Shown one piece after another: positions 9,814-57,753 of a stretch of DNA of 64,000 bases (position 1 is the first letter of the stretch; every line of letters starts with the position of its first letter). Position numbers and translations under genes: made by a program. The notes beneath the pieces were generated by a model. That model saw nothing but the letters and a program-made list of their open reading frames with translations, had not been told where the DNA came from and ran no database searches. The stretch is from a virus. Location: IMG/VR virus record IMGVR_UViG_3300029319_009044, positions 106,909 through 170,908 of that record; one strand, given 5' to 3'.

Positions 9814-9818
9814 ATTAT

Positions 9819-9826: not shown

Positions 9827-9830
9827 CTAG

Positions 9831-9838: not shown

Positions 9839-9843
9839 ATTTT

Positions 9844-23500: not shown

Positions 23501-23506
23501 TTATTA

Positions 23507-23514
23507 TATTTAAT
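23507..23514 (-). promoter_or_regulatory. Late-promoter variant ATTAAATA
   Basis: Minus-strand octamer 6 nt before the ATG at 23500 of fibre B, in the 21-base gap between the two fibre genes. The same variant precedes fibre A. Confidence 0.5.
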
Positions 23515-23521
23515 CTTAAGT

Positions 23522-26500: not shown

Positions 26501-29500
26501 ATCAGTTGCAAGAATTGATGTTATACCTGTTTGAGCTGCATCTACACTTAATGAAGGTGTTGTACCACCCGTTGAAGTTAGTCCTGTACCACCAGCTACA
26601 CTTGTTACTGTACCAAGACAATCTGTAGCAGCATTAATTTGAGCAGCTGTTCTTGTAACAGAAGTGCCCCCTATATGTAAACAGTTTTGAGGAATACATA
26701 ATTTAGCTGCTTCTAAGCATAGATGGTCGTTACCATCATTTGCACACCAACACATATAAACTCCTGAACAAAGACCAAATAATTTTACGTTTTTGCCTTG
26801 AGTATTACAACCAACAGTTAATGTACCATCTAGTTGTACATTACCATCTATATCAACTGCATCTAAATTAGTAGTGCCATCTACATCTACATTACCAGCT
26901 ACGCATAACCCAGCTGCTCCACCAAGTATTAAGTCATCTACTGAAGCATCCCATAACATATATGCGCTAGCTGTATCACCAAAGAATTTTACATCATAAC
27001 CTGTATCGTCTACACCAACAGTTAGAGTACCATCTAGTTGTGAAGCGCCATCAATATCTAAAGAGTCACCTTTAACCTCACCAGTTACATCAATACCAGT
27101 GTTTGTTGTTTCTAACTTCTTAGAGTTGTTAAAATATAAATCAACAGAGTCTCCTTTATTAAGAACAGCCATATTATGGCTATTGTTATATCCTTGAATT
27201 TTTACCTGATCGTTCGCTCTTAAAATAAGATCGCCAGTATCTGTGTCATCAATATAACTATTACTACCATCATGATAAATTTGTAAGTCACCATCATCTC
27301 CTATTTTTAACGGAGTGCTATCAGTTAAACATAATGCATCTTCACTTTCGTCCCACATCATGAAGCTACCAGCTGTTGCTCCAAAGAACTTAACATCATA
27401 TCCCGTGTCATCTACACCAACAGTAACAGTACTATCTATTTGTACAGCACCGTCTATATCAACTGCATCAAGATTAGTAGTACCATTAATATCAGCATCG
27501 CCTTCTATATCAAGCGAAGCAGCATCTAATTCACCAGTTAGAGTTATATTTCTAAAACCTGTTATATCTTTATTTGTATCAACAATAACTGCTTTATTAG
27601 CAGCAACTATGCCATCGGTTATAGAGTTAATTTGATTAAGCTCTGCAGCAGTAGAATCAACTGGAGTACTATTCAGAACTAATTTAGAGTCTCCTATACA
27701 AACTTTATTATTGAAAGTAGCAGTACCAGCATCAGACATATTAAACGTAAGAGCAACTGTTTGTACACCACCATCATTTCCGCAGATAATTAAATTTTGA
27801 TCACTAATTTTACTTTCTACTACAAAATTACTACTATTATTTCTTAATCTTCCAAACTCTGTACCACCGTCTTTTAAACAAATATCACCGCCATTAGCAT
27901 CAAGTACGAGATCTGCTTCAGCGTCTATTATTAGTGTACCACCATCTGATATAGTTGAACTATTAATAGTAATATCACCAGCAACTATTTTATCAACGTA
28001 AGTATCTTTCCATCTAACACCGCTAGTCCCTAAATCTACATCACTATCAGTTCGAGGACCAAAGATACCATCAGCAACATAAACTTGTTCAGCATTAGCA
28101 GCGTAGAAGTGAATCTCATCAGCTGTCTCAAAATCAATCTTAGTTTCGTCATCTTCTCCAATTTTAATATCAGTAGCTAGTAAAGATGTAATAACTGTTT
28201 GAGCAGCATCTACATTTAAAGTAACAGCTCCTGATGTACCGCCACCATTTAAACCCGTACCTGCTGTTACACCTGTAATATCACCTGTAGTTGGAGTATG
28301 CCAACAGATTCCGCTACCAGTAGAAGCTAATACTTGACCGTTAGCACCTTGAGAACCACAAATTTTTATATTATCTAATTTAACTGTACCATCAAAGAAA
28401 GCATTATTAAACTCTAAAGCATCTGTTCCTAAATCTACTGCAGCATTCGAACCCGGTGTTAAAAACCCATCAGTTAATATTAATTGCTTTTCATTATCGG
28501 TATAAAAGTTTATGGTATTTGTATCTTCAAAATCAATCTTAGTTTCATCATCTTCTCCTATTTTAATATCAGTAGCTAAAATAGAAGTAATACCTGTTTG
28601 AGCAGCAGCTACGGCTAAGTTTCCAGCTGAAGTAACGGCTCCTGTTAATCCAGTACCAGCTCCAACACATGTTACAGTACCTAAGCAATCTGTTGCAGCA
28701 TTAATTTCTCCGCCTGTTTTTGTAACAAGAGTAGATCCTATGGTTAATTTACTTTCTGGTAGAGTTAGACCAGCGGCACCTCCAAGTACTAAATCATCAG
28801 TAGATGCATCCCATAACATATATGCGCTAGCAGTATCACCAAAGAACTTAACGTCGTATCCTGTATCATCAACGCCAACTGTAACTGTATTGTCTATTTG
28901 TACAGCACCGTCTATATCAACAGCATCGAGATTAGCTGTACCATCTACATCAAGATCAGTTCCAACATATAATTTTTTAGCTATTCCTACACCACCTAAA
29001 ATTTGAACGGCTCCTGTAGATGAACTTGATGCATCAGTTGCAGTGCAAACACATAGATTTCCAATCTCTACATCTAAGTTTCCAACTGATACATCATTCA
29101 AAGTTGCATCACTACCAACAGTAATATTGTCTAAGAATCCACTTTTCCATCTAACTCCAGTTGTACCTAAATCTACATCACTATCTGTTTGAGGACCAAA
29201 AACACCATCAGAAACATGAACTTGTTCTGTATTGTTTATATTAAAAAATAAACATTGACCGGATTTTGCGTTTAAGCCAGTTGCTCCACTTGCATTCTGT
29301 TTAACAGCATAATTTGTTGAAGTACCATTATCAAAATGAGAAAAATAGGCATTGTCACCTACATAATTACCAATTCTTGACTGACCTATAACAGCATTTG
29401 TTGGGTTATCAGCATTTACACATAAATTATTTCCTGAATAAAGAACACCGCTAGCACTTATATTACCAACAACTGAGATTTTTTCACCGGGGGTGAATGT

Positions 29501-30304
29501 GCCTACTCCAAGCTTACCATCATCTGCAAAAATTATATCTCCTCCATTTTTATCTATAAAATGAGCAATAGGTTGTGTACCGTCTTGACGAACAAATAAT
29601 GCAGGACCGGTACCTGTATTAACTACAGATAGAGCTGATGTAACACTAACGTTAGTATCAATATAATGCATGTCTCCATGCACGCTTAGATTACCTAATA
29701 TTGTACTATCACCGTCAATATTTAAATTACATCTAGCACTTAAATTACCATTTACTTCAATAGTAGTACCGAGTTCACTTATGAGACTATCGCCTATACA
29801 AGATGAAGCGGTAAACTTAGGTATTTTATTTATAGTACCAGCTCCACCTACTCCACCTGCCGCTCCACCTGCGCCAAATATGTCTAAAAGATCTGTACCA
29901 CCAGAAATAAAAGAAGAAGCAGCAAAAATTGAATTAGCACTTAAGTTACTTCCCGCACTTATAAATCCTGTAACCGTTAAATTACCTTCAATATCATTTA
30001 CACTACCACCACTTCCAGTATTTTCTACAAATTTAACTCCACCTTGCCCATCAGCTGCTAATATTAACCCTTCAGATATATTAGTAGTTTTTAAATCAAT
30101 ACTTTCTACTACTACTTGATCACTACTTAATGGCTCACCTCTCCATTTACCTAGATAACTTCCAGAAGATATACCTGTACCAAATATAGTATTAGAAGAA
30201 CTAATACCTCCTGCTACAGTAAGTTGTTGCTCGGGTTTAGTCCCTATTCCTATTTTACCAAGGAATACGTTATTTTGACCTTCAAATGTTCTAATGAGCC
30301 CCAT
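23522..30304 (-). CDS. Giant repetitive tail fibre protein (2260 aa), copy A
   Basis: Paralogue of the 2283-aa fibre. It starts MGLIRTFEGQNNVFLGKIGIGT, then carries the same repeated modules (GTTNLDAVDIDG, TGYDVKFFGDTASAYMLWD, KIGEDDETKIDFETAD, EIGNLCVCTATDASSSSTGA). The C-terminal 110 residues differ: GYFEEKAANDELAEYETGSLVVIGKDGKLILSTKRNDKNVFGVTQ and IKIGDYITTSNKPGHGER resemble the beta-domain of peptidase-G2/IMC-like tail proteins, though I see no proof of autoproteolysis. Together the two fibres take over 13.6 kb, about a fifth of the window. Confidence 0.85.
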   Translation of the reverse strand: MGLIRTFEGQNNVFLGKIGIGTKPEQQLTVAGGISSSNTIFGTGISSGSYLGKWRGEPLSSDQVVVESIDLKTTNISEGLILAADGQGGVKFVENTGSGGSVNDIEGNLTVTGFISAGSNLSANSIFAASSFISGGTDLLDIFGAGGAAGGVGGAGTINKIPKFTASSCIGDSLISELGTTIEVNGNLSARCNLNIDGDSTILGNLSVHGDMHYIDTNVSVTSALSVVNTGTGPALFVRQDGTQPIAHFIDKNGGDIIFADDGKLGVGTFTPGEKISVVGNISASGVLYSGNNLCVNADNPTNAVIGQSRIGNYVGDNAYFSHFDNGTSTNYAVKQNASGATGLNAKSGQCLFFNINNTEQVHVSDGVFGPQTDSDVDLGTTGVRWKSGFLDNITVGSDATLNDVSVGNLDVEIGNLCVCTATDASSSSTGAVQILGGVGIAKKLYVGTDLDVDGTANLDAVDIDGAVQIDNTVTVGVDDTGYDVKFFGDTASAYMLWDASTDDLVLGGAAGLTLPESKLTIGSTLVTKTGGEINAATDCLGTVTCVGAGTGLTGAVTSAGNLAVAAAQTGITSILATDIKIGEDDETKIDFEDTNTINFYTDNEKQLILTDGFLTPGSNAAVDLGTDALEFNNAFFDGTVKLDNIKICGSQGANGQVLASTGSGICWHTPTTGDITGVTAGTGLNGGGTSGAVTLNVDAAQTVITSLLATDIKIGEDDETKIDFETADEIHFYAANAEQVYVADGIFGPRTDSDVDLGTSGVRWKDTYVDKIVAGDITINSSTISDGGTLIIDAEADLVLDANGGDICLKDGGTEFGRLRNNSSNFVVESKISDQNLIICGNDGGVQTVALTFNMSDAGTATFNNKVCIGDSKLVLNSTPVDSTAAELNQINSITDGIVAANKAVIVDTNKDITGFRNITLTGELDAASLDIEGDADINGTTNLDAVDIDGAVQIDSTVTVGVDDTGYDVKFFGATAGSFMMWDESEDALCLTDSTPLKIGDDGDLQIYHDGSNSYIDDTDTGDLILRANDQVKIQGYNNSHNMAVLNKGDSVDLYFNNSKKLETTNTGIDVTGEVKGDSLDIDGASQLDGTLTVGVDDTGYDVKFFGDTASAYMLWDASVDDLILGGAAGLCVAGNVDVDGTTNLDAVDIDGNVQLDGTLTVGCNTQGKNVKLFGLCSGVYMCWCANDGNDHLCLEAAKLCIPQNCLHIGGTSVTRTAAQINAATDCLGTVTSVAGGTGLTSTGGTTPSLSVDAAQTGITSILATDLKIGEDDETKIDFETADEIHFYANNTEQVYLGDNIFGPQSDSDVDLGTNLVRWKDAYVDKIVAGGITINSSTISDGGTMILDSGGDIKLDAAGNDVCLLVDGTAFGKLRKDGSDNFLIQSLIDDKDIKFCGSDNGSAIAALTLDMSEAGAATFNNKVIATELEISGNVDIDGTTNLDAVDIDGTTQIDGTVTVGVDDTGYDVKFFGDTASAYMLWDASADDLILGGAAGLCVSGDADIDGTLEADAITVGGATLASVIQGTTVTTAQNATNSCKLNIADNEDTNEDNLIPFIADAGSTGNVALESDGHLHYNPSTGRVTATQLAGTLQTAAQTNITSLGTLTTLDVNGTANLDAVDIDGNVQLDGTLTVGVDDTGYDVKFFGDTASAYMLWDASEDDLILGGAAGLTLPESKLTIGSTLVTRTAAQINAATDCLGTVTCVGAGTGLTGAVTSAGNLAVAAAQTGITSILATDIKIGEDDETKIDFETADTINFYAGDEKQLILTDGFLTPGSNAIVDLGTDALEFNNAFFDGTVELDNLTIAGSQGSSGQVLASTGSGICWHTPTTGDIEGVTAGTGLNGGGTSGTVTLNVDAAQTGITSILATDLKIGEDDETKIDFETADEIHFYAANAEQVYVADGIFGPQTDSDVDLGSSSVRWKSGFLDNITVGSDATLNDVSVGNLDVEIGNLCVCTATDASSSSTGAVQILGGVGIAKKLYVGTDLDVNGTANLDAVDIDGNVQLDGTLTVGVNDTGYDVQFFGATADRFLKWDESENALCLTDNTHLKIGDDDDLQIYHSGGHNFITAEGGAGSLYIRPGSGNTVQIEDKDGQDMITAGGAGAVNLYYNNSVKIQTTTGGVCVTGDVCASGNGYFDCVIAGGYFEEKAANDELAEYETGSLVVIGKDGKLILSTKRNDKNVFGVTQKGAKQPIVLGAEPVLVTGEIKIGDYITTSNKPGHGERSTNTIHGTIIAQALESGNGESHIVKAMVRKM
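24339..24417. repeat. Fibre repeat block, copy 3 (79 bp)
   Basis: Homologous to 18108-18186 but with the ACCTAAAATTTGAACGG variant shared only with 28959-29037, showing homogenisation within each gene. Confidence 0.8.
28959..29037. repeat. Fibre repeat block, copy 4 (79 bp)
   Basis: Nearly identical to 24339-24417 in the same gene; related to the copies in the other fibre. Confidence 0.8.
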
Positions 30305-33482: not shown

Positions 33483-33947
33483 ATGAAGTGTTTATGTTTC
33501 TTAATACTTTTATGTAGCAGTAGTCTAGCTAATGAATTAACATTTAGGTTTAAATCTCCTTCATTTAGTGGTATTGGATACAGTGCGCATAAAATAAATC
33601 TAGAAAATATATCTGCGGCCAGAAAGAAAACAATTAGAGATGAATTAAAATCATTAGAAATTCAAGCTAATTTAGCTGCCCAGAGAACTCCATTGAATGT
33701 ATTTATGACAAATTTACAGTCAAGGATTTATTCAGAGCTCTCTAAACAGGTTACAGAGCAGCTATTTGCTGATACTGGTTCTGATTCAGGTTCTTTTAAT
33801 CTTGATGGTAATACTATATCATGGTATAGATTAGCTGACCAAATAAATCTGACAGTAACTGATACTGATGGTGATCTTACTAACATATTAATTCCTATTG
33901 GATCACTTCTATTACCTGAGCCAACTAATGAAACAACTACTGAATAG
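33483..33947 (+). CDS. csgF: CsgF-like curli assembly protein
   Basis: 154 residues with a signal peptide (MKCLCFLILLCSSSLA, cut likely after Ala16). The mature start NELTFRFKSPSFSG matches the CsgF N-terminal 'x-TFQFRNPNFGG' that plugs the CsgG pore. NVFMTNLQSRIYSEL and a C-terminal beta part (GSFNLDGNTISWYRLADQINLTVTDTDGDLTNILIPI) follow the CsgF layout. In curli, CsgF binds CsgG at the outer membrane and couples secretion to nucleation. Its end overlaps csgG by 20 bases. Sequence divergence is high but the N-terminal motif plus neighbours make this firm. Confidence 0.82.
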   Translation: MKCLCFLILLCSSSLANELTFRFKSPSFSGIGYSAHKINLENISAARKKTIRDELKSLEIQANLAAQRTPLNVFMTNLQSRIYSELSKQVTEQLFADTGSDSGSFNLDGNTISWYRLADQINLTVTDTDGDLTNILIPIGSLLLPEPTNETTTE

Positions 33948-34812
33948 TCTTTTAAGTTTAACACTTTTAAGCGGTTGCGCAACTTTTAATGATAGTGAAC
34001 TTAATAAACCTCCTATCGTAGCTCCAACCCCTTTAAAAAATAAATTAACTACTATACCAGAATTAGATGGTGAGCCTATTTATATTGGAGTTAATAGCTT
34101 TAAAGACTTAACTGGAGCAAGAAAACAAGCTGATAATTATGCAAGTTTCTCTTCTGCAGTTACTCAAGGTGGTGAAGCATGGTTAATTGAATCTCTCTTA
34201 GAGTCAAATGGTTGGTTTAAAGTTTTAGAAAGAGGTCAATTAGATACAGTAATGAGAGAAAGAGCTTTAGTTCAACAAACTAGAGAAGACTTTACTGATG
34301 ATGATGAAACTGGATTAAAACCTTTATTATTTGCTGGATTGCTTATACATGGAGGAATTATAAGTTATGATACTAATATGATTTCTGGTGGTGTGGGAGC
34401 TGCCTACTTAGGTATAGGTGCTCATGAACAGTACAGGAAAGATGTAGTTACTGTATCATTAAGATTAGTGAGTACGTTAACTAGTGAGATTCTTTTATCT
34501 TCAACTGTATCAAAAACTATATACTCAACCTCACTAGGATCAGATGTATTTAAATTTGTTAACCAAGCTTTAGATTCACTTGAATTTGAAATAGGATATG
34601 CTAAAAATGAGCTAGTATCGGTAGCTACTAGAGCAGCTATAGATTTAGCTATTTTAGATTTAATTGAAAAAGGAGAAAAAAATAAAATGTGGAAATTTAA
34701 AAAGAGCACTGTAAAAAAATTACCTAAAATAACTGAAAAAGAACAAGTTAAAAAAGAACCATTAAGTAAAAATAAGAAATATAAGTCTTCGTTTAATAAA
34801 ATAAAAAGATAG
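33928..34812 (+). CDS. csgG: CsgG-like outer-membrane curli secretion channel lipoprotein
   Basis: 294 residues from the ATG at 33928; the longer frame upstream is out of keeping with the signal. Lipoprotein signal MKQLLNSLLSLTLLSGC with lipobox L-S-G-C17. CsgG family blocks follow: IYIGVNSFKDLTGARKQ, GGEAWLIESLLESNGWFKVLERGQLDTVMRERAL, LLFAGLLIHGGIISYDTN, and VTVSLRLVSTLTSEILLSSTVSKTIYS. CsgG makes a nonameric export pore. Length is near E. coli CsgG (277) plus a basic tail (KKSTVKKLPK onward). Placed between csgF-like and curlin-like genes. Confidence 0.9.
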   Translation: MKQLLNSLLSLTLLSGCATFNDSELNKPPIVAPTPLKNKLTTIPELDGEPIYIGVNSFKDLTGARKQADNYASFSSAVTQGGEAWLIESLLESNGWFKVLERGQLDTVMRERALVQQTREDFTDDDETGLKPLLFAGLLIHGGIISYDTNMISGGVGAAYLGIGAHEQYRKDVVTVSLRLVSTLTSEILLSSTVSKTIYSTSLGSDVFKFVNQALDSLEFEIGYAKNELVSVATRAAIDLAILDLIEKGEKNKMWKFKKSTVKKLPKITEKEQVKKEPLSKNKKYKSSFNKIKR

Positions 34813-34818
34813 ATTTTT

Positions 34819-34826
34819 AATAAATA
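34819..34826 (+). promoter_or_regulatory. Late promoter octamer AATAAATA
   Basis: 5 nt before the ATG at 34832, giving the curlin-like gene its own late transcript. Confidence 0.65.
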
Positions 34827-34831
34827 ATTTT

Positions 34832-35662
34832 ATGAACATAAAATCTATTTTAACAGCTATTCTTTTATCTAGTGGTTTAGTATTCTCTTCAAATGAAATT
34901 TACTTAGATCAGATAGGTAGTGCAGGTATATTTAATATATCTCAAATTGGATCTAGTAACAAATTAGGAGAAGGTAATAATCGATCTAGAATTGAAGGAG
35001 AAGAAGTTATTTTTAATGTAGCAACTATAGGTAATGAAAATTTAATAGATATTGACTCTATAGGAAATGAAGAAGTAGTAAATCTTCAAGTAGAAGGCGA
35101 TGCTAATGACTTTATTTTAGCTCTTGAAGGTGATCAAAATACTGTAAATGCTTTTGTAGCAGGAGATACTAACAGCATTTTAATTGCAGGAGACCAGGAA
35201 GATACACAAAAAGCTACTGTAAATAATGGATTAATAAATTTAAATGTTGAGGGTGCTTCAAATGATATAGAGTTATTACTATTTGATACATCATATACTT
35301 TTACAGATTATTTTATTGGTGGCTCTTTAAATACCATTAGCTCTTATCAAGAAGGTCATGGTGGTTTAATTGGACATTCACAACTAGTTGATGTTTTTGG
35401 TAGTAGTAATAATTTATTAATATCTCAAGTAGGTTCTGAAAGTCAATTTATTGAGCTCTCAGTTTTAGGAAATGAAAACACATATCAAATATATCAAACA
35501 GATGGAAGCTTTGATCCATCATTCATGCCTGAGCAAATTGGTAACGAGGTTAACCCAGTTAACGATTTTTCAAATCCCGATGGTATTCCAAAAGTTCCAA
35601 CACTTGTTATCGAGCCACGTCCATTATTACTCGAAGGTATTGTTCTCGAACAGGGTCAGTAA
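34832..35662 (+). CDS. Curlin-repeat-like secreted protein
   Basis: 276 residues with a signal peptide (MNIKSILTAILLSSGLVFSS). The mature protein is made of degenerate curlin-type repeats with the form x-I-x-Q-x-G-x-x-N: IYLDQIGSAGIFNISQIGSSNKLG, then NVATIGNENLIDIDSIGNEEVVNLQVEGDAND, ALEGDQNTVNAF and ISQVGSESQFIELSVLGNENTYQIYQ. Such repeats stack as a beta-solenoid and can form amyloid. It is strongly acidic, unlike the basic-rich phage proteins around it. It directly follows csgG and has its own late promoter. Likely substrate of the CsgG/CsgF channel (inference). Confidence 0.72.
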   Translation: MNIKSILTAILLSSGLVFSSNEIYLDQIGSAGIFNISQIGSSNKLGEGNNRSRIEGEEVIFNVATIGNENLIDIDSIGNEEVVNLQVEGDANDFILALEGDQNTVNAFVAGDTNSILIAGDQEDTQKATVNNGLINLNVEGASNDIELLLFDTSYTFTDYFIGGSLNTISSYQEGHGGLIGHSQLVDVFGSSNNLLISQVGSESQFIELSVLGNENTYQIYQTDGSFDPSFMPEQIGNEVNPVNDFSNPDGIPKVPTLVIEPRPLLLEGIVLEQGQ

Positions 35663-36563
35663 TATAGTTCTTATAATAAGTTTTATCTTATTACCTATAC
35701 TTGCTTACGCTGACATAGGCAGTGTAACGTCTCAAACTAAAGCAGCTAGAATTACCCGTAAAGGGGATAAATTTCTTACTGAAGTTAATACTTTAGTTGA
35801 AATGAGAGATTTAATTGAAACCTTAAAAGGTAAGGCTAATATAAAATTTATAGATGATACTAAAGTAAGTGTCACGGAATATTCTAAACTTGTAATAGAT
35901 GAATTTGTTTATAACCCAGAAAAGAAAACAGGTAAACTATCGTTAAAAGCAGCATTAGGTACTATAAGATATTCTTCAGGTAAAATTGCTAAGAATTCTC
36001 GACAAAATGTAAAGATAAAATCTCCAACTGCTTCAGTTACTGTTAGAGGTACTGATTTTACTATGAATGTTCAAGAAGATGGAGCTAGTAGTTTTCTATT
36101 ATTACCATCAAAGGATGATGCTGGTAACTCATTTGTTGGATCTATAGATGTTTCAACTCTTGGAGGTACTGTTACTTTAAATAAAGCGTATCAAGCAACT
36201 ACTGTTACTTCAGCTATAGCAGCACCAACACCACCGCAAGTTATACAACAAGATGGTCCTCAAGTAAAGAAAGATAAAAATAAAAAAGAAAATATAGAAG
36301 AAGATACAAAACCAGAAGATGATGAAAAACAACAAGATTTTGAAGATATTAAAATAAAGAGAAAAGAAAAGAAAGCCAAAAATGCTTTTTTAAAAATGGA
36401 TGATGGGAGATATGTTTTCTTTTCTAAAGATAAAGATAATATTATTTCTCTTATAGTAGAAGATGGTAGCAACGTTACAGTAAATTATGATAATAGAGGC
36501 AGTATTATTAACGCTAAGATGAACTCAGGTAATAACGTACAATTTAACATAAAACAACAATGA
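35640..36563 (+). CDS. FecR-domain periplasmic protein
   Basis: About 307 residues if started at the TTG at 35640, which gives a good signal peptide (N-x-VLIISFILLPILAYA) and a 23-base overlap with the curlin gene; the longer frame reads through that gene and is rejected. The start is uncertain. FecR signature: ITRKGDKFLTEVNTLVEMRD, IKFIDDTKVSVTEYSKLVIDEFVY and NVKIKSPTASVTVRGTDFTMNV. A very charged linker (EEDTKPEDDEKQQDFED) follows. In bacteria FecR domains sense or scaffold at the outer membrane and are often next to CHASE2 cyclases. Its stop overlaps the cyclase ATG. Confidence 0.85.
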   Translation: MFSNRVSNIVLIISFILLPILAYADIGSVTSQTKAARITRKGDKFLTEVNTLVEMRDLIETLKGKANIKFIDDTKVSVTEYSKLVIDEFVYNPEKKTGKLSLKAALGTIRYSSGKIAKNSRQNVKIKSPTASVTVRGTDFTMNVQEDGASSFLLLPSKDDAGNSFVGSIDVSTLGGTVTLNKAYQATTVTSAIAAPTPPQVIQQDGPQVKKDKNKKENIEEDTKPEDDEKQQDFEDIKIKRKEKKAKNAFLKMDDGRYVFFSKDKDNIISLIVEDGSNVTVNYDNRGSIINAKMNSGNNVQFNIKQQ

Positions 36564-38617
36564 AATTTTTTAATATAAATGCTTATGCAATATGCTTAGC
36601 AGTTACTGTAGTTATGGTTCTATTAAGAATATTTGATCCTTTTTTTATAGAAACTGCTCGACTTAAAGGTATAGACTATTATCAAAATAAACAAGAAAAA
36701 GTTATATCAGAAAATATAGCTATTATTGAAATTGATGAGAATAGTTTAGATGAATATGGTCAGTGGCCTTGGAATAGAAGTTTGATTGCTGGGGGTATAG
36801 CAAAAGCTTTTGAAAGTGGAGCTCAATTAGTAGTGGTACCTATTTTATTTGCAGAAAAGGATAGACTTGGAGGTGATAAAGACTTAGTAAATTTATTAAG
36901 CGAAGCACCAGTTATTATAGGCCAATCAGCAAGTACAAAAGGTAAAGGATCTCCAGTTCCAAGAGGATTAGCTACTATTGGTGAACCGTTAGGAGACTGG
37001 CTTTATGATTACCCTGAAGCTATAGGACCTGTAAAAGAGTTAGGAGAAGTTGCTGCTGGAGTAGGTATGATACTAACAGCTCCAGAATTAGATGGAGTAG
37101 TTAGAAGAATGCCTTTAGTTATTCAAATAAAAGGTGAAGCATACCCTACTATACCTTTAGAAGTTATAAGATTATTTTCAGGTGAGCAATCTTATCAGGC
37201 TAAAGTTGGTTTAGGCGGTGTTGAAGCTATAAGAGTTCCAGGATTTGATCCTATAGCTACTGACGAAAACTCTAGAGTTTGGCTCAATTTTAAATATAAT
37301 TTTAATAAAGTATCTTTTAATGAAACTGATTGGTCAGTAGTTAAAGATAAAATTGCTGTTATAGGGTTAACAGGGGAAGGTTTAGCTAATACAGTAGCTA
37401 CTTCAACAGGTATAAGCTATGGACATGAAATTACTAGCCAAGCTTTACAAATGCTAATTGATGAATCTAGATTACAAAGACCTACTGAATCCACTATATT
37501 AGAAGTAATTATTACAGCATCATTCTGCTCGCTTCTTATCATTGGAGCTCTCTGGTTATCCTATAAGTTTAGCTTAGTATTAATAATAGCTTCTTTAGCT
37601 GCTGGACCATTTATCGGAAATATCTTTTATAATAATAATGGTTGGTTAATAGATTATACTTGGCCTTTTGCATGTATATTTGTTACCTGGGCTTGTGCAA
37701 CATTCATAAGATTTATTAATGAAAGCAAATCTAAACAACAGATAAAGAAACAATTTGAACATTATCTTGCTCCTCCCATAGTTAAATTATTGCAAAAGGA
37801 TCCTACATTACTAAAGCTTGGAGGCGATACTAGAGAGTTATCTATATTGTTTAGCGATTTAAGAGGGTTTACTTCTATAAGCGAACATTTTAAAAGCAAC
37901 CCTCAAGGTTTAACGGAATTAATAAACAGATACCTTACTCCGATGACAGGGTGTGTTATAGATCACAATGGTACAGTAGATAAATTTATTGGTGATGCTT
38001 TAATGGCCTTTTGGAATGCACCGTTAGATGTAAAAGACCATAGAGAAAAATCTATATACTGCGGTATAAAAATGTTTGATTTACTAGCTAAACTTAATAA
38101 GGAAGTAATTAACGAAGGTTTAGATGAATTAAAAATAGGGGTAGGTATTAATACTGGTGATGTAGTAGTAGGTAATATGGGATCAGAACAACGGTTTGAC
38201 TATACATGTTTAGGCGATGCAGTAAATTTATCTTCTAGATTAGAAGGTCAGACAAAAGATTATAGAGTAGGTATCATAGTGGGTGAAGGAACAGTAAAAG
38301 GAATAGAAGATAGATTTAAATTTGTAGAATTAGATAAAATAGCAGTCAAAGGAAAAGAAGAAGGGGTAAGAATTTACACCATTTTAAATAATACATCTAG
38401 ATGTGCTAATGGAGGCGATGTAACTCATCATAATACATTCTTAACATTCTATAGAAAACAACACTGGAATAGAGCATTAAAAATGATTGATTTAAATCAA
38501 ATTACATACCCGGAGTTAAAAGGTTATTATGAAATGATGAGAGAGAGAATAGAAACTCTCAAAGTTAATAAGCCTGGAAAAGGTTGGGATACAATTTATA
38601 GAGCTACTTCGAAATAA
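36560..38617 (+). CDS. CHASE2-domain class III nucleotidyl cyclase
   Basis: 685 residues. One N-terminal membrane helix, a periplasmic CHASE2 domain (ENIAIIEIDENSLDEYGQWPWNRSLIA onward, to about 300), three helices (about 315-390), then a class III cyclase domain: LSILFSDLRGFTSIS with metal Asp433, VDKFIGDALMAFW with Asp479 and ATP-type Lys475, NTGDVVVGNMGS, and YTCLGDAVNLSSRLE with the transition-state Asn and Arg. All catalytic positions look intact, so it should make cAMP (or cGMP). A short C-terminal helical extension follows. It is operon-linked and overlapped with the FecR gene. Such an enzyme is very unusual in a phage. Confidence 0.93.
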   Translation: MKFFNINAYAICLAVTVVMVLLRIFDPFFIETARLKGIDYYQNKQEKVISENIAIIEIDENSLDEYGQWPWNRSLIAGGIAKAFESGAQLVVVPILFAEKDRLGGDKDLVNLLSEAPVIIGQSASTKGKGSPVPRGLATIGEPLGDWLYDYPEAIGPVKELGEVAAGVGMILTAPELDGVVRRMPLVIQIKGEAYPTIPLEVIRLFSGEQSYQAKVGLGGVEAIRVPGFDPIATDENSRVWLNFKYNFNKVSFNETDWSVVKDKIAVIGLTGEGLANTVATSTGISYGHEITSQALQMLIDESRLQRPTESTILEVIITASFCSLLIIGALWLSYKFSLVLIIASLAAGPFIGNIFYNNNGWLIDYTWPFACIFVTWACATFIRFINESKSKQQIKKQFEHYLAPPIVKLLQKDPTLLKLGGDTRELSILFSDLRGFTSISEHFKSNPQGLTELINRYLTPMTGCVIDHNGTVDKFIGDALMAFWNAPLDVKDHREKSIYCGIKMFDLLAKLNKEVINEGLDELKIGVGINTGDVVVGNMGSEQRFDYTCLGDAVNLSSRLEGQTKDYRVGIIVGEGTVKGIEDRFKFVELDKIAVKGKEEGVRIYTILNNTSRCANGGDVTHHNTFLTFYRKQHWNRALKMIDLNQITYPELKGYYEMMRERIETLKVNKPGKGWDTIYRATSK

Positions 38618-47719: not shown

Positions 47720-48460
47720 TTATTTATTCAAAGCTGCTTCTAAGGCACTTCTTAATTTAGCTTCTGCTTTAGAACCTATATCATCTTTTCTTCCGGGGGA
47801 TATTTCTCTGTGTGTGGTAACAGTAGATAAATCTTTAGGCCATCCCCATTTTTCAAATCTCGGCACTAACCACTCTACAGCAGATGCAACTTCGTCATCA
47901 GTAAGCTCTCTAGTATTAGTATTACCACTGAAAGCTAATCCAAGTAAAAACCCATTACAATTAGTTCTTCCATTGAAATTAGATTTACCTGCATGCCAAC
48001 ATCTACGATCATCATCTGCAAAAATTGTTCTTTCTCCATTAGTATCTATAATGCAGTGATACGATACTTGAGACTTCGTTTGACATATCCAACTTACTGA
48101 TCCAGCATAAGATCCTGAAGAATGATGTAATACCACACCTTCAGGTCTAATTCTAGATGAAGATATATTAGGTGAAGGTTTACTTACTTCTGGGTATGTT
48201 CCGTCGACGGCACTTGATGCGACCTCAACCACTGCGGGTTGTTTACTTAAGCCTAACGCTTCTGAAATAGTTTTTGCTGTGTTAGGTCCATAAGCACCAT
48301 CTGGAAGGGAATCTGTTTTTTTCTGAATAATTTTAGTAAGTTCTTCTTTAGTAAATCCTAGCTTACTTATAATTTTTAACGCAGTATTCTTACCATAAAT
48401 ACCATCAGCTGTAGCGCCTACAGCTTCTTGAATCTTTTTAGTAGTTTCTTTTAATGACAT
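47720..48460 (-). CDS. N-acetylmuramoyl-L-alanine amidase endolysin with two PG-binding domains
   Basis: 246 residues. Two N-terminal peptidoglycan-binding repeats (GATADGIYGKNTALKI and DSLPDGAYGPNTAKTI), then an amidase_2/PGRP domain from about residue 95: VVLHHSSGSY (Zn His), CWHAGKSNFNGRTNCNG (second Zn His), THREISPGRKDDIG (late His and acidic ligand). It cuts the stem peptide from muramic acid at lysis. Unusual modular order for a Gram-negative phage endolysin, with the binding repeats first. Late promoter 5 nt upstream; divergent from a candidate holin. Confidence 0.88.
   Translation of the reverse strand: MSLKETTKKIQEAVGATADGIYGKNTALKIISKLGFTKEELTKIIQKKTDSLPDGAYGPNTAKTISEALGLSKQPAVVEVASSAVDGTYPEVSKPSPNISSSRIRPEGVVLHHSSGSYAGSVSWICQTKSQVSYHCIIDTNGERTIFADDDRRCWHAGKSNFNGRTNCNGFLLGLAFSGNTNTRELTDDEVASAVEWLVPRFEKWGWPKDLSTVTTHREISPGRKDDIGSKAEAKLRSALEAALNK
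47721..47728 (-). promoter_or_regulatory. Late promoter octamer AATAAATA
   Basis: 5 nt before the ATG at 47715; covers the last codon of the amidase gene. Confidence 0.6.
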
Positions 48461-48473: not shown

Positions 48474-48500
48474 AAAAAAGTTGTAAAATATACTATGTAT

Positions 48501-48508
48501 GATAAATA
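48501..48508 (+). promoter_or_regulatory. Late promoter octamer GATAAATA
   Basis: 5 nt before the ATG at 48514. It overlaps the alternative ATG at 48499, which argues that 48514 is the true start. Confidence 0.5.
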
Positions 48509-48513
48509 CTTTT

Positions 48514-48768
48514 ATGGATATGATACTAGAATTCATTAGTGACAAACCTTGGTTTGGTCTTATAGCCGCAATTATTGCTGCAGCAGCTGCCTTTTGTGCA
48601 GCTACTCCAACACCTAAAGAGGGTGGTTGGGTGTCTAAAGTCTATAAAGTTATAGAGTTTTTGGCACTTAACATTGGAAAAGCTAAAGCTAAAGCAGAAG
48701 TTAAAGAAGCTGTAACTGATGCAGTAACTGACGCTGTTAAAAAGGCTACTACCAAAAAGAAGAAGTAA
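48514..48768 (+). CDS. Candidate holin
   Basis: 84 residues from ATG 48514 (89 from 48499). One strong helix FGLIAAIIAAAAAFCAATP, then an amphipathic/Ala-Lys-rich region (KAKAKAEVKEAVTDAVTDAV) and a basic end (KKATTKKKK). Such a layout, next to a divergent endolysin, fits a holin. The two small coiled-coil membrane proteins at 32.9-33.4 kb are rival candidates. Confidence 0.55.
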   Translation: MDMILEFISDKPWFGLIAAIIAAAAAFCAATPTPKEGGWVSKVYKVIEFLALNIGKAKAKAEVKEAVTDAVTDAVKKATTKKKK

Positions 48769-48779
48769 CTAATAAGCAA

Positions 48780-49052
48780 ATGGGTGGCGGCATTATTAAA
48801 GGAGTCTTAAGAGCCTTAACTGCATATTTAGAGTTAAGGAATAAGACTCATTATCACCGTGTCGTTACAGAATCTCGTGATAAACAAAAAAAATTAATAA
48901 ATGAAATTGAAACATTACGCACTGCTGGCGACGTCGATTCTAATGATAGGGCTGACATCTTGCGGGACGAGCTCCTCGACGAAAAGCGGCACCTTGAACA
49001 TTTATCAGCCTTCTACATTAAATCTTGCGGCGGGGATACCGATCCAGAGTAA
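48780..49052 (+). CDS. Possible inner-membrane spanin partner
   Basis: 90 residues. A modestly hydrophobic start (GGGIIKGVLRALTAYLEL) followed by a long charged helix (VVTESRDKQKKLINEIETL, ADILRDELLDEKRHLEHL). It contains and overlaps the start of a lipoprotein gene in another frame, the nested layout of Rz/Rz1 spanins. But the membrane segment is weak, so the i-spanin call is tentative. Confidence 0.45.
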   Translation: MGGGIIKGVLRALTAYLELRNKTHYHRVVTESRDKQKKLINEIETLRTAGDVDSNDRADILRDELLDEKRHLEHLSAFYIKSCGGDTDPE

Positions 49053-49155
49053 AGCTGGAGTATACACCCCACAGACTGATGAAGTATGGCATTCAGATAC
49101 TCGTTTCAGAAAGCTTGAAAGGCAGCTATACTTTAAACCCACATCAGGTAAATAG
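48901..49155 (+). CDS. Small lipoprotein, o-spanin (Rz1)-like
   Basis: 84 residues with a lipoprotein signal MKLKHYALLATSILMIGLTSC (lipobox ending at Cys21), a Ser/Thr-rich linker and SDTRFRKLERQLYFK at the end. It lies out of frame across 152 bases of the preceding gene, as Rz1 genes do. Together with the amidase and holin candidates it forms a plausible lysis module. It would sit in the outer membrane. Confidence 0.6.
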   Translation: MKLKHYALLATSILMIGLTSCGTSSSTKSGTLNIYQPSTLNLAAGIPIQSKAGVYTPQTDEVWHSDTRFRKLERQLYFKPTSGK

Positions 49156-52642: not shown

Positions 52643-52650
52643 CATAAATA
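52643..52650 (+). promoter_or_regulatory. Late promoter octamer CATAAATA
   Basis: 5 nt before the ATG at 52656; drives the DUF1549/DUF1501 gene pair. Confidence 0.65.
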
Positions 52651-52655
52651 TTGTT

Positions 52656-54395
52656 ATGGTGAAAGCTATAACAATATTTTTATGTCTACTTTGCTCTAAT
52701 ATTCTAGCAAATCAAATAGATCATAGTAAAGAAATAGATAAAATTATTGCTAATGATCTTAAAAATAAAAGAATTGAGTTACCTATAGTAGTTAACCCCT
52801 TTGTATTTGTAAGAAGAGCGTATATCGATATTGCTGGTAGAGTTCCAACATATCAAGAATGGAAGACGTTTATAAAGAGACCTGATAGGAAAAAATTAAT
52901 TGAAGATCTTCAAAACTCTAAAGGTTATACTGAAAGTATGTTTAACTTTTATGCTGATCTTCTTAGAATAAAGAGACGTCTTTCAAACAATATTGATGGT
53001 GATACATATATAACTTGGGTTAAACAAGAAATAGAAAATAATACACCATATGATGAGTTTATTAAAAAGATATTAACTGCAGAAGGTAACATATGGGAAA
53101 ATCCAGAAGTGGGTTATTTCTTAAGAGATGAAGGGATGCTTCTCGATAATGTTAGTAATACATTTCAAGCTTTTGCTGGAATGAATATAAGTTGCGCGCA
53201 ATGTCATGATCACCCATTTGATGATTGGACGCAGATGGATTATTATAATATGTCAGCATTCTTTACACAGTTAAATACTAGAGGTAAAAAAGAAGATAGA
53301 AAAGAGTTTCAGCGATTAAGAAAAGAAGCTGAAGAGTTAGATAAATCTGGAAAGCAAAAAGGGTCAACAAATAGAATCGGGCAATTTTATAGACATGGTT
53401 ATCAGCATACTATAGTGCAGGATCAAGATAAAAAATTAAAGCTTCCTGATGATTATAAGTATAGAGATGCTGAACCCGGAGAAGTAGTAAAGGCCGAAAC
53501 TGCAGTAGGGGATAGAGTTAAAGAAAAGCGTAAGAGAGAAGGGTTAAGAGAAAGTTTCGCAAATTGGTTAGCTAATGACACGCATCCAACATTTGCTGCT
53601 AATATTGTAAACCGGTTGTGGGATAGATCATTTGGCTTTCCGTTAATAGATAATTTAAATGAAGTAGCTTTATTTGATGAAATAAAGGATGGGCGTAACA
53701 CTCGATTAATAGAATACTTAGTTAAAGTAATGAAAGAGGTTGATTATGATTTGAAGAAGTTCAATAATATTTTATATAATACAAAGTTCTATCAAGCTAA
53801 AATTGATCCGGATAACGAGTTTAAAGGACCTGTTCTAAGAAGAATGACAAGTGCACAATTGTGGGACTCTATAGTAACTTTATATCAAGGCGACCCAGAC
53901 AAGTGGCAGCCTAAGGATAGGAAGCAGGATTATATAGATCTGTTTACAGGTCTACAATCTATGCCTGTAGATGAAGCTTTAAAAAAATGGAATCAATATA
54001 CTAAAATAAGAGGTAGTTATTATGAAGGAGCTCCTAAAATAAAGGGTAATTTAGTAGTTAGATCATCGCATATATTTGAAGGTAGAAATGCAAACTTTTT
54101 AAGAGAGTTTGGTAGGTCTGATAGAGAGCTTATTGAAACCGGGAACGAACAACCAAACATAACTCAAATATTAAATTTAATGAACGGCAATGTAACACAA
54201 GCGCTTCAAGATCCTAATGGTTATGTAGCTAATCAAGCAAAAGATATGAAGCGAGAATTAGGAATGAATATAATTTTTATATCATATATTGGAAGAGCTC
54301 CTAATGATAAAGAAAGAGAATTATTAAAAGACGCAAGTTACGAAGATGTAGTATGGATACTAATTAACTCACATGAATTTAAACTAATAAGCTAA
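52656..54395 (+). CDS. Secreted DUF1549-DUF1553 protein (PVC-type) with C-x-x-C-H
   Basis: 579 residues with a signal peptide (MVKAITIFLCLLCSNILA). DUF1549 (PSCyt2): VRRAYIDIAGRVPTYQEWKTFI, NFYADLLRIKRR, EVGYFLRD, and NISCAQCHDHPFDDW with Cys180, Cys183, His184 resembling a heme c site. DUF1553 (PSD1): FAANIVNRLWDRSFGFPLIDNLN, RLIEYLVKVMKEVDYDLKKFNNIL, RRMTSAQLWDSIVTLY. These domains are abundant in Planctomycetes and Verrucomicrobia and of unknown function. It is normal-sized to slightly small for the family (often 700-1000 aa). Late promoter upstream; one base from its DUF1501 partner. Confidence 0.93.
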   Translation: MVKAITIFLCLLCSNILANQIDHSKEIDKIIANDLKNKRIELPIVVNPFVFVRRAYIDIAGRVPTYQEWKTFIKRPDRKKLIEDLQNSKGYTESMFNFYADLLRIKRRLSNNIDGDTYITWVKQEIENNTPYDEFIKKILTAEGNIWENPEVGYFLRDEGMLLDNVSNTFQAFAGMNISCAQCHDHPFDDWTQMDYYNMSAFFTQLNTRGKKEDRKEFQRLRKEAEELDKSGKQKGSTNRIGQFYRHGYQHTIVQDQDKKLKLPDDYKYRDAEPGEVVKAETAVGDRVKEKRKREGLRESFANWLANDTHPTFAANIVNRLWDRSFGFPLIDNLNEVALFDEIKDGRNTRLIEYLVKVMKEVDYDLKKFNNILYNTKFYQAKIDPDNEFKGPVLRRMTSAQLWDSIVTLYQGDPDKWQPKDRKQDYIDLFTGLQSMPVDEALKKWNQYTKIRGSYYEGAPKIKGNLVVRSSHIFEGRNANFLREFGRSDRELIETGNEQPNITQILNLMNGNVTQALQDPNGYVANQAKDMKRELGMNIIFISYIGRAPNDKERELLKDASYEDVVWILINSHEFKLIS

Positions 54396-54396
54396 T

Positions 54397-55599
54397 ATGA
54401 ACAGACGACTATTTATACAAACCCTAGCAGCATCTACTTACGGTCTTAAGACATTAGATGCTAAAGATGCACCAATTGCTTCTAAAGCTAAAAATGTTAT
54501 TTACATTTGCTTAGATGGAGGTATGAGCCATATTGACTCTTTTGATCCTAAAGATGATAAAGAGGTAATGGGTGATACTACAAAGATAAGCACTAAGGTA
54601 AGTGGTATTGAATTAGGTAACAGATTACCTAAATTAGCAGAAGTAGTAGATAAAATGTCAATTATAAGATCTACTCATTCTAAAACTGGTGCTCATGAAC
54701 AAGCTCAATACCTTAATAGAACATCTTATAGACAGATAGGTAGTATAGTACATCCTAGTTTGGGTTCTTGGGTAGCTCATATTCAAGATAGAGAAAAAGA
54801 TATTCCGGATTATGTTTTAATTTCTGGGTCTTCTGCTCATCCTAATTCTGGATTTTTACCTAAGGTAAAATCTCCTCTTCCTATTATAGATCCAAATGGC
54901 GGGTTAAAAAATTCTAAAGTAGATAGTAAGCTAGAAGAGAGAATGAACATATTAAGAGAAATTAATAGTAAATTTAAAGCTCCGTTAGCTACAGAGTATA
55001 ATGAGTTCTATGACAATACAGTAAGATTTTTAAAATCTAAAGATTTAGAATTATTTGACTTAACTAAAGAAAAGCCAGAAGCGAGATCTGCATATGGTAA
55101 TACTAAATTAGGACAGGGATGTCTTTTAGCTAAGCGTTTAATTAAAGGAGACATTAAGTTTATAGAGATTAATAACGGCGGTTGGGATACACATGTAGAC
55201 AACTTTACTAAGTTGGATAATAAGCTCAAAGAAGTGGATGATGCATTAAGTGCGCTAGTATTGGATCTAGATAGTGAAGGTCTTTTAGATACAACGCTAA
55301 TAGCTCTTGTAACTGAGTTTGGTAGAACCCCTAAGATAAATGTTAATGATGGTCGTGATCATCATCCATCTTGTTATTCAACAGTTCTTATAGGAGCAGG
55401 AGTTAAGGGTGGTTATGTAGCTGGTGAGACAAATAAATCAGCTTCTAAAGTAACTAAAGACCCTTATACTATATCCGATATTAATGCCACTATAGCTCAT
55501 CTATTAGGTATTGAAGCTGAAAAAGAAAGATTTTCTCCTACAGGAAGGCCATTTAAGGTTGCTAATAAAGGTGAAATAATTAAAGATATTTTAGCATAA
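54397..55599 (+). CDS. DUF1501 protein with Tat-like signal (sulfatase/alkaline-phosphatase-like fold)
   Basis: 400 residues. The start MNRRLFIQTLAAS is a twin-arginine-type signal. The fold landmarks of DUF1501: NVIYICLDGGMSHIDSFDPK (metal Asp), MSIIRSTHSKTGAHEQAQY, HPSLGSWVAHI, NNGGWDTHVDNF and TLIALVTEFGRTPKIN, DGRDHHPSCYSTVLIGAGVKGG (metal His/Asp). In PVC genomes it is commonly just after DUF1549/1553 genes, exactly as here. Proposed function is unknown. Two-gene operon with one base between, followed by a strong terminator. Confidence 0.93.
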   Translation: MNRRLFIQTLAASTYGLKTLDAKDAPIASKAKNVIYICLDGGMSHIDSFDPKDDKEVMGDTTKISTKVSGIELGNRLPKLAEVVDKMSIIRSTHSKTGAHEQAQYLNRTSYRQIGSIVHPSLGSWVAHIQDREKDIPDYVLISGSSAHPNSGFLPKVKSPLPIIDPNGGLKNSKVDSKLEERMNILREINSKFKAPLATEYNEFYDNTVRFLKSKDLELFDLTKEKPEARSAYGNTKLGQGCLLAKRLIKGDIKFIEINNGGWDTHVDNFTKLDNKLKEVDDALSALVLDLDSEGLLDTTLIALVTEFGRTPKINVNDGRDHHPSCYSTVLIGAGVKGGYVAGETNKSASKVTKDPYTISDINATIAHLLGIEAEKERFSPTGRPFKVANKGEIIKDILA

Positions 55600-55631
55600 A
55601 AAAAGCGTCCTTGTATACAAGGACGCTTTTT
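55600..55631. terminator. Bidirectional terminator
   Basis: Perfect 14-bp inverted repeat (A-tract, GCGTCCTTG, TATA loop, CAAGGACGC, T-tract) that begins right after the DUF1501 stop and ends 18 bases before the stop of the convergent barrel gene, so it serves both. Confidence 0.95.
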
Positions 55632-55649: not shown

Positions 55650-56123
55650 TTAAAACTCGAATGAAAGACCAAGTCTAAGCTCGGTATCATCATCTTCAGC
55701 GTCAAAATCGTAACCTAAGGTATAAGTAGCAAATACTGCTTTACCATCACCGATCTCATACGATACACCAGCACCAGCACGAATGTCGAATCCAATATCG
55801 TCTGTATCAACCCAATTAAGGCCAACACCACCAATAGCAGAAACAGTACATCCATAAACTTCAGTCACATCGTAAGATGCACCAAGGTCGAAATTAAGAT
55901 CACCGCTACCAAATTCAACAGCAGGCTTAAGATCTACCTCAACACCAGCGAGGGCGATTGGAGCAGTAGTACCAACAACAAGACTATAATCACCATCGGT
56001 CTTTGATACACCAATGCTATAGTCAGTTAATTCAACACCTGCTACAGTTGCAGCTGCAGCGGGTCCAACAAAGGCCACAAAAGCAAAAGCAGTTGCAGCG
56101 AGTAATGTAGTTACTTTTTTCAT
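55650..56123 (-). CDS. Small outer-membrane beta-barrel-like protein
   Basis: 157 residues from the ATG at 56123 (an upstream start at 56150 is rejected: it runs over the promoter). Sec signal MKKVTTLLAATAFAFVAF ending PAAAA. Alternating strands such as YSIGVSKTDGDYSLVVGTT, NFDLGASYDVTEVYG, GFDIRAGAGVSYEIGDGKAVFATYTLGYDF and a terminal LRLGLSFEF ending in Phe, the BAM recognition signal. It has visibly higher G+C and more host-like codon use than neighbours. Phage OMPs can alter the host surface. Late octamer 7 nt upstream. Confidence 0.78.
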   Translation of the reverse strand: MKKVTTLLAATAFAFVAFVGPAAAATVAGVELTDYSIGVSKTDGDYSLVVGTTAPIALAGVEVDLKPAVEFGSGDLNFDLGASYDVTEVYGCTVSAIGGVGLNWVDTDDIGFDIRAGAGVSYEIGDGKAVFATYTLGYDFDAEDDDTELRLGLSFEF

Positions 56124-56175: not shown

Positions 56176-56505
56176 ATGAGGCCAGTAATTTTTTATGAAG
56201 GTATAGTTGCGCCTCCTTCAGAATCTGGAGCTGTTCGCTCTGTATGTTTGTATGGTAAGGTTTTTATAGATTCTAACCTTCCCTTTTTATTAGAAACTAC
56301 CCAAGAAAATAAAGATATATATTATGATTGGATAAAGAAAGTTGGATTAACAGATTTTATAAAAGAGATAGTAACTGCTGAAGAAAAAGTAAAAGGTTTA
56401 AGAATATCTGAAGATAAAAAAAGAGATCCTTGTCTTACTATATCAAGAGTATCATTAGATAATTTAGATCATATTGTAAATATGTTAAAATATTCTAATT
56501 TTTAA
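56176..56505 (+). CDS. Uncharacterised phage protein
   Basis: 109 residues (MRPVIFYEGIVAPPSESGAV, then DIYYDWIKKVGLTDFIKEIVTAEEKVKG). No signal peptide or membrane segment. Overlaps the convergent lysozyme gene by 4 bases. No family recognised. Confidence 0.55.
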   Translation: MRPVIFYEGIVAPPSESGAVRSVCLYGKVFIDSNLPFLLETTQENKDIYYDWIKKVGLTDFIKEIVTAEEKVKGLRISEDKKRDPCLTISRVSLDNLDHIVNMLKYSNF

Positions 56506-57314
56506 TTATTTTTATTTGCTAATATACTAGCGTTTCTTTCCATACGCTTTACTACTCCATCTCTACCTTTACTCTTACGTCTTTTATACTCTTTATGATC
56601 AAGGTATTCATTAGCAGCTTTTATGTTTTCCCCTCTTTGTAAAAGCTTTACCCATTGCATACCAGGTAGAAGGTCACCTCTATAGCTAATATCAAGTAAA
56701 ACTGCTGCTTGTTCATCATTAAGGTCATTGAAAGATAAACCAAAAATTTCTTTTACTCGATTTAAATGAAAGTTTAACTTTTTATCAAAAAGCTTTTCAG
56801 CGAATTCTGGAGATATAGAACTACCATATTTTTTAACCCATTTATTCTTAGCTGCTAATGATCCATCTCCAATTTTATTTCCTATACCTATAGTATAAAC
56901 ACCGACATCATCTCTATATGGTTTTAAGAATTTTTTATTTCTAGGTTCACTAATATCAGTACCATATATTTCTACCGGTTTAATTAAATTACCTGCTAGA
57001 GTTAAAACACTATCTTCGTCTTTATCAGGCGGTAAATCATCTACAGTAGATTTTTTCTCTTTAGGCTCCGGAGGTAAGTAACTATTTTTATCTCTTGTTT
57101 CATATTGCTTTAAGTATTCATCTGCAGCTCTATGAAAGTTAGATGATGAAGGCATTATATCTTCAACTCTATCTATAGCGTTAATTTTTTGCTCTATAGG
57201 TTCTGGTCGCTTATCTAAGTAATCTTGTATTTTTTCTGCCGAAAAAGGAGCGGAACCTATAGCTAATAAGCCAAGTACTATTTCTTTCATACCTTCGTCA
57301 AACTGTTGAGTCAC
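56502..57314 (-). CDS. GH24 phage lysozyme-like protein
   Basis: 270 residues from the GTG at 57314, set by a late octamer 5 nt upstream; the longer frame enters the tmRNA gene and is rejected. N-terminal 110 residues are a helical/Pro-rich region beginning TQQFDEGMKEIVLGLLAIGSAPF (maybe a membrane-tethering helix). From about residue 120 a T4-lysozyme (GH24) domain: LKPYRDDVGVYTIGIGNKIGDG, LNFHLNRVKEIFG, NDLNDEQAAVLLDISYRGDLLPGM, VKRMERNASIL. The expected catalytic Glu should lie in IKPVEIYGTDISEPR. It is a second muralytic enzyme besides the amidase and hub lysozyme. Confidence 0.75.
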   Translation of the reverse strand: MTQQFDEGMKEIVLGLLAIGSAPFSAEKIQDYLDKRPEPIEQKINAIDRVEDIMPSSSNFHRAADEYLKQYETRDKNSYLPPEPKEKKSTVDDLPPDKDEDSVLTLAGNLIKPVEIYGTDISEPRNKKFLKPYRDDVGVYTIGIGNKIGDGSLAAKNKWVKKYGSSISPEFAEKLFDKKLNFHLNRVKEIFGLSFNDLNDEQAAVLLDISYRGDLLPGMQWVKLLQRGENIKAANEYLDHKEYKRRKSKGRDGVVKRMERNASILANKNN

Positions 57315-57319
57315 GTATA

Positions 57320-57327
57320 TATTTATT
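57320..57327 (-). promoter_or_regulatory. Late promoter octamer AATAAATA
   Basis: 5 nt before the GTG at 57314, and 17 bases downstream of the tmRNA 3' end. Confidence 0.65.
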
Positions 57328-57343
57328 ATAAAGGTGTTCCTAT

Positions 57344-57753
57344 TGGTGGAGGTGAGGGGAGTCGAACCCCTGTCCATTAAGTTATCAAAATAACTGTCTA
57401 CATACTTAGATATATTCTATTTTAAGGATATATGGTTATATCAACCATCCTACATTTCTTTTATCAGTAATGCTTTGACTTAGCTTAAAATTACATTAAT
57501 TGCTAAAATTAATAACTCATTACATTACCCAAACACTTTAATGAGAATCCATGTTTGTTTTTATGCGGCGAGAAGGGCTTCTTCTTGAACCAAGAACGCG
57601 TCAGGGTTGTTGAAGATTGCTTCTGCTTCCGCAAGAAGGTCTGCTTCTTCTTGTTCTGCAGTTATGTATTTAATCGGCTTTTAACGTGGCCAACCGATCA
57701 ACCACGATATGCGAGCTATAAATCCAATATAATGTCGAATCCATTGCACCCCC
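57344..57753 (-). ncRNA. ssrA: tmRNA (ssrA) with an unusually long proteolysis tag
   Basis: About 410 nt, one piece. 5' end GGGGGTGCAATGGATTCGAC (57753-57734); the 3' end has the T-arm GGGGTTCGACTCCCC, acceptor strand CACCTCC, discriminator A and encoded CCA (57346-57344). GGGGGTG pairs with CACCTCC with one G-U as in E. coli. The tag ORF starts at the resume codon GCA (57659) and ends with GCC GCA TAA (57561-57563): 32 residues beginning AEQEEADLL and ending QEEALLAA. Typical tags are 8-15 residues. It rescues stalled ribosomes and marks the peptide for degradation. Upstream ATTAAATA may be its promoter. Confidence 0.96.

Follow-up and report, generated by a model that had tools for sequence, protein, structure and literature searches.

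A host-derived PSCyt2-PSD1/DUF1501 gene pair behind a late-promoter box in T4-like phages, most likely of Verrucomicrobiota

A pair of adjacent genes, encoding a PSCyt2 (DUF1549)-PSD1 (DUF1553) protein and a DUF1501 protein, has been captured from bacterial hosts by viruses several times and kept intact under a late promoter, and its products are probably exported. We studied this pair in a 64,000-nucleotide stretch of DNA (the window), the last 64 kb of the 170,908-bp linear IMG/VR virus record IMGVR_UViG_3300029319_009044, and describe here the identity and order of the two genes, their repeated capture, the selection acting on them and the promoter box and terminator that enclose them. As the best explanation of the whole we propose, tentatively and with somewhat less than even confidence, that the pair is a late, exported function that alters the host envelope or a surface polymer when virions are released. 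That phages capture host genes is already known; the pair itself is not represented in the phage reference sets consulted (PHROGs and GenBank phages).

The original prediction, made from the letters alone, had placed a DUF1549/DUF1553 and DUF1501 pair at positions 52656-55599, and its coordinates proved exact (Table 1). In the first ORF, PSCyt2 was matched by Pfam at E=1.6e-38 (133.2 bits against a gathering score of 29.8) and PSD1 at E=2.3e-18 (66.9 bits against 28.5), and the DUF1501 match covered the full profile (1-390 of 390, E=3.5e-97, 326.5 bits). The export signals that had been read from the sequence were found as well, the N terminus of PSCyt2-PSD1 being Sec-like by inspection (MVKAITIFLCLLCSNILA) and the twin arginine R3 R4 of DUF1501 being shared by all rows of the alignment, viral and cellular (30/30). 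Cellular PSCyt proteins have been predicted to be periplasmic or cytoplasmic, not extracellular (PMC5615132). Neither protein matched NCBIfam, the PADLOC anti-phage defence models or PHROGs, its structural and lysis families included, and the AlphaFold model of PSCyt2-PSD1 found no match in the PDB. In the window's viral clade PSCyt2-PSD1 is compact, about 580 aa compared to about 640-800 aa in most cellular relatives. Its CxxCH motif, present in a single copy, is kept in 54/54 viral and 56/57 cellular rows and, judged from this alignment, is a constant of the PSCyt2 family and not a phage oddity; the earlier remark that it is unusual for a phage applies to the GenBank phages searched but not to uncultivated large phages. 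The motif may carry heme c, and CxxCH alone could also bind another metal.

Table 1. Position of the gene pair, its control elements and lysis-type neighbours in the window
Feature	Position	Strand	Basis or remark
Endolysin (Amidase_2)	47720..48460	-	Pfam; linked to the pair in several relatives
Hydrophobic holin-like ORF	48499-48768	+	Predicted; no lysis-family match
ORF with nested +1-frame lipoprotein ORF 48901-49155 (lipobox LTSC)	48780-49052	+	Rz/Rz1-type spanin-like, predicted
T4-type late promoter box CATAAATA	52643..52650	+	Spacer to PSCyt2-PSD1 ATG exactly 5 nt
PSCyt2 (DUF1549)-PSD1 (DUF1553) protein, 579 aa	52656..54395	+	Pfam; Sec-like N-terminal signal
CAQCH motif, residues 180-184, putative heme-c or metal site, then DHPFDDW	53193..53207	+	Alignment
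DUF1501 protein, 400 aa, twin-arginine N terminus; predicted alkaline-phosphatase/sulfatase-superfamily fold	54397..55599	+	Pfam, alignment, AlphaFold, Foldseek
Hairpin terminator, A-tract and T-tract flanks	about 55600-55631	.	Between convergent genes
Outer-membrane-barrel-like gene, convergent with the pair	55650-56123	-	Across the hairpin terminator
NATAAATA-N5-ATG, examples (start positions)	9844, 11526, 14918, 34832, 48460(-), 52656, 58205(-), 61228(-), 63190(-)		

With a DUF1501 model of low confidence (mean pLDDT 58.6), the best 50 Foldseek matches all belonged to the alkaline-phosphatase superfamily (best E=8e-7, TM about 0.4), among them LtaS, sulfatases, YejM and a phosphatase, and a PDB-sequence profile search ranked sulfatases and lipoteichoic acid synthase, weakly (E 0.13-0.92). 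On the strength of these models we regard the superfamily fold as partly shown. Residues D264, H266, E307, R320 and H322, some of them candidates for metal binding, are invariant or nearly so in the alignment, and the EFGR/DFGR, GRxHxP and WDxH-type motifs are kept in 54-56 of 56 viral rows. Since these motif residues are kept, we judged a decoy function by a dead enzyme unlikely. The predicted fold and the conserved Asp/His/Glu motifs resemble those of the superfamily (LtaS, S1 sulfatases, YejM/PbgA), but identity in the structural alignments is only about 9-14% and a formylglycine motif (CxPSR/CxASR) is lacking; by inspection, the signature C-x-[PA]-S-R is absent from the 400 residues, and DUF1501 is therefore not an S1 sulfatase.

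That the pair has a late promoter of its own is borne out by the spacing of the box in Table 1, as the exact TATAAATA stands at the same 5-nt distance in 12/16 relatives, the remaining upstream DNA being unrelated between groups. The window contains 14 copies of NATAAATA-N5-ATG, compared to 1.1 in shuffled sequence, and these precede the genes for the head protease, the endolysin, the repeat protein of a curli region, an EF-hand protein and others. With its promoter conserved and its box common to other late genes, the pair appears to be integrated in the late programme of the phage, as had been proposed, and not a stray insert. The same NATAAATA at 5 nt from an ATG was also seen in relatives, and likewise in further T4-like loci that carry the pair. 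In 50-kb stretches of T4 and P-SSM2 (ORFs of at least 60 codons) no box lay 5 nt from a start, the spacers being 12-35. Late boxes of T4 start at -13 (PMC2988020), so that an 8-bp box would end at -6 and the start site in this phage would be the A of the ATG; from this spacing we predict that late mRNAs are leaderless in this phage group. The hairpin behind the pair has a folding energy of -21.2 kcal/mol (z=-6.5), and its A-tract and T-tract flanks mean that it can serve both strands, in line with the bidirectional terminator of the original prediction. Between box and hairpin the pair is predicted to form a late operon, the timing being read from the promoter box.

The pair is not confined to this one assembly but recurs in dozens of IMG/VR contigs. 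Searching with the window's proteins alone retrieved 15 loci for PSCyt2-PSD1 and 23 for DUF1501; alignment queries retrieved 57 PSCyt2-PSD1 loci as well as 140 relatives of DUF1501, the best 80 of the 140 being kept. Gp23 was found in 14/50 records tested (the window's own and 13 besides), including contigs of 184-224 kb, and terminase in 22/35 records tested; many contigs match neither (fragments or misclassified), which leaves the count of true viruses with the pair uncertain. DUF1501 lies directly 3' on the same strand in 50/53 full-length viral PSCyt2-PSD1 genes, mostly at less than 50 nt, and the other 3 genes reach contig ends. Pairwise dN/dS between close relatives is 0.03-0.10 for both genes, with synonymous sites near saturation in wider comparisons; by this measure both are under strong purifying selection. 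Among 50,697 GenBank phages, tblastn gave no match to either protein of the window, and a divergent viral DUF1501 protein gave one weak partial match (E=8e-4). A mention of DUF1501 in a Pseudomonas phage (PMC5418858) was set aside, being a weak match of a 61-aa ORF.

The record itself carries T4-like genes for the gp20 portal, the gp23 capsid protein, the head protease and ribonucleotide reductase; its terminase is located outside the window, and the three T4-like marks, gp20, gp23 and terminase, are all present. None of the GenBank phages matched by its Gp23 reaches 60% identity (best among the matches listed about 34%, to cyanophages), which points to a deep lineage. A phage-encoded tmRNA at 57344-57753 (-) (Rfam, E=4e-52) overlaps the start of ORF 56502-57377, and 16649-30304 (-) is occupied by two very large repetitive ORFs (2283 and 2260 aa), probably of tail fibre or adhesin type. 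The region 33483-38617 (+) encodes in a row csgF, csgG (curli type VIII secretion), a repeat protein, FecR and a CHASE2-adenylate/guanylate cyclase; the repeat protein has no Pfam match and is curlin-like by eye, and for the cyclase there is a match, at 1e-204, to a PHROG of unknown function.

Our search of cellular genomes was confined to Verrucomicrobiota, where 28/289 genomes contained a PSCyt2-PSD1 match at E <= 1e-20, the best being 34-44% identical (phage contig excluded), and where DUF1501 stood directly 3' of it in nearly all retrieved regions, the order of the viral genes and the one that had been attributed to the PVC phyla. In an IQ-TREE phylogeny 22 viral PSCyt2-PSD1 rows fell into a single clade (100/100) whose sister clade is cellular, and a quick DUF1501 tree agreed. 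A larger FastTree analysis, to which Roseibacillus, Bacteroidota, gammaproteobacterial and planctomycete rows were added, gave for PSCyt2-PSD1 two big viral clades, of 31 and 22 rows, each with a cellular sister of its own, together with one single row, and for DUF1501 five viral groups, which makes several captures most likely. As placed by these trees, the viral proteins nest among Verrucomicrobiota homologues and not outside PVC, with most likely at least three entries of PSCyt2-PSD1 and at least five of DUF1501 into viruses; Planctomycetota were sampled by one plasmid (L225), and a planctomycete sister group is possible. Both families also occur on plasmids of Bacteroidota and Gammaproteobacteria, and the DUF1501 model matches the control genomes of Caulobacter and Deinobacterium: both families are enriched in PVC without being exclusive to it, so that the idea of a PVC signature stands as to enrichment and falls as to exclusivity.

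Two viral loci (L006 and L095) contain a second DUF1501 gene whose best match, at 72% identity, is a gene of a Roseibacillus MAG, the runner-up reaching 48%. Additional DUF1501 genes of other phages share 56-64% identity with another Roseibacillus gene, compared to about 40% for the runner-up. The second gene of L006, at 9203-10624 (+), is of a different subfamily and lies directly 3' of the pair, apparently a recent capture. These identities, although indirect, are the best evidence that the phages live in Verrucomicrobiota, which together with the genome search and the trees is likely the donor and the host phylum, in keeping with the host hint of the original prediction. A Roseibacillus MAG contig carrying the pair (L039) was rejected as direct host evidence and left unused; in it, phage sequence with ambiguous bases is joined to bacterial sequence at about 4.6-5.1 kb, and the contig is likely a chimeric scaffold of a public genome. 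Scaffolds of this kind would lend some colour to the reading of the pair as hitchhiking host DNA or a misassembly without a role for the virus, but the pair's occurrence in many assemblies, often with Gp23 or terminase, its dN/dS far below 1 and its conserved late promoter already contradict this, and we give it almost no credence.

In the window's clade the pair is linked to lysis genes. In 12/20 loci a lysis enzyme is no further from the pair than 3 ORFs on the upstream or 2 on the downstream side, against 6.0 expected under random placement (p=0.005), and when spanin- and holin-like ORFs are counted too in 16/20 loci against 6.5 expected; the loci are mutually related, which makes the p-values optimistic. 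The arrangements vary, with an amidase, a holin-like and a spanin-like ORF upstream, a tail-lysozyme-type gene upstream, a spanin-like ORF upstream and an amidase downstream, or an amidase upstream. The nested lipoprotein ORF of the window (Table 1) is conserved in 12/12 homologues and has no family match. The window's own pair is set apart from the lysis genes by four to five genes for sugar modification, and in other viral lineages lysis linkage was not found, the pair adjoining the gp20 portal gene or sitting elsewhere. We therefore regard the linkage as partly shown, for the window's clade. Late expression, often beside lysis genes, suggests action on the outer layers of the host at release.

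The pair might instead act in auxiliary metabolism, doing the job of the host copies, such as a periplasmic oxidation or desulfation of oligosaccharides that feeds electrons or nutrients to the infected cell. The Roseibacillus MAG G001 (3.6 Mb) has 51 DUF1501 matches, one on a phage contig, and such a multiplicity of about 50 copies in one Verrucomicrobiota genome would fit this, as would the verrucomicrobial PSCyt genes reported near sulfatase and CBM genes (PMC5615132) and the Saccharobesus pair, which adjoins cytochrome c, cytochrome b and GH88 genes. The promoter is late, however, not early, the window's clade is linked to lysis genes, and the flanks of the nearest cellular homologues hold no consistent sugar-utilisation genes (the Pfam sulfatase model was matched by 2/66 ORFs), and we consider this role rather unlikely. 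Superinfection exclusion, in which the exported pair would alter or mask a receptor such that the infected cell or its debris stops binding sister phages, is in our opinion unlikely: the export signals and late expression agree with it, and the heptose-type, methyltransferase and cupin genes nearby would suit a modification of surface sugars, but exclusion genes are usually early, and the sugar genes adjoining the pair differ between relatives. A late promoter of the head-gene type and the position next to gp20 in some lineages could also mean that the virion carries one protein or both, inside or on its surface, for action at entry. Such a component is very improbable, given export-like signals on both proteins, unusual for T4-like virions assembled in the cytoplasm, and the lack of a structural-family match in PHROGs.

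Modification of the envelope or a surface polymer at release is the most economical reading because it accounts together for the export signals, the late timing, the linkage to lysis genes and a fold of hydrolase type, and the sulfatase and CBM genes reported near verrucomicrobial PSCyt genes speak for it too; the poor DUF1501 model, the PSCyt2-PSD1 model without PDB match, a linkage limited to related genomes, the few sulfatase matches around cellular homologues (2/66 flanking ORFs) and the predicted periplasmic or cytoplasmic place of cellular PSCyt proteins count against it. According to this proposal, T4-like phages, most likely of Verrucomicrobiota, took the host pair and would express it as a late operon from the T4-type promoter, PSCyt2-PSD1 being exported presumably by Sec and DUF1501 by Tat. 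DUF1501 may then act as a metal-dependent enzyme of the alkaline-phosphatase/sulfatase superfamily, with PSCyt2-PSD1, possibly bearing heme c at its CxxCH site, as its obligate partner. As infection ends, the two together would modify the envelope or a surface polymer (probably a glycan bearing sulfate or phosphate groups), and virions might as a result be released cleanly or not re-bind the cell. The auxiliary role at the cell surface, possibly polysaccharide-related, that the original prediction suggested is an inference, and so are the export routes, catalysis, substrate and release role of this proposal. A wider proposal, that the PSCyt/DUF1501 module is an envelope-polymer remodelling system of which phages repeatedly made one copy a dedicated late release factor beside endolysin and spanin, on leaderless mRNAs, seems to us doubtful.

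With the Planctomycete/Verrucomicrobia module (PF07583, PF07587, PF07394) the viral pair shares domains, gene order, exported-type N termini, CxxCH and DUF1501 motifs; it differs by a compact PSCyt2-PSD1 in the window's clade, by its own long-branched clades and by the T4-type late promoter. Auxiliary genes of marine T4-like phages such as CsgG/CsgF (PMC9004378) are likewise host-derived envelope proteins proposed to act around lysis, but the present pair consists of different proteins of a PVC-type system, absent from the GenBank phages searched.

In Planctomycetes and Verrucomicrobia few gene families have been seen to be as multiplied as PSCyt and DUF1501, whose function has been called unknown (PMC5615132, PMC4452313). 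A compact single phage copy under strong selection, with a clear predicted time of expression and linked lysis genes, offers a tractable route to that function, and the pair singles out a group of large phages, widespread and for the most part uncultivated, that are likely viruses of Verrucomicrobiota.
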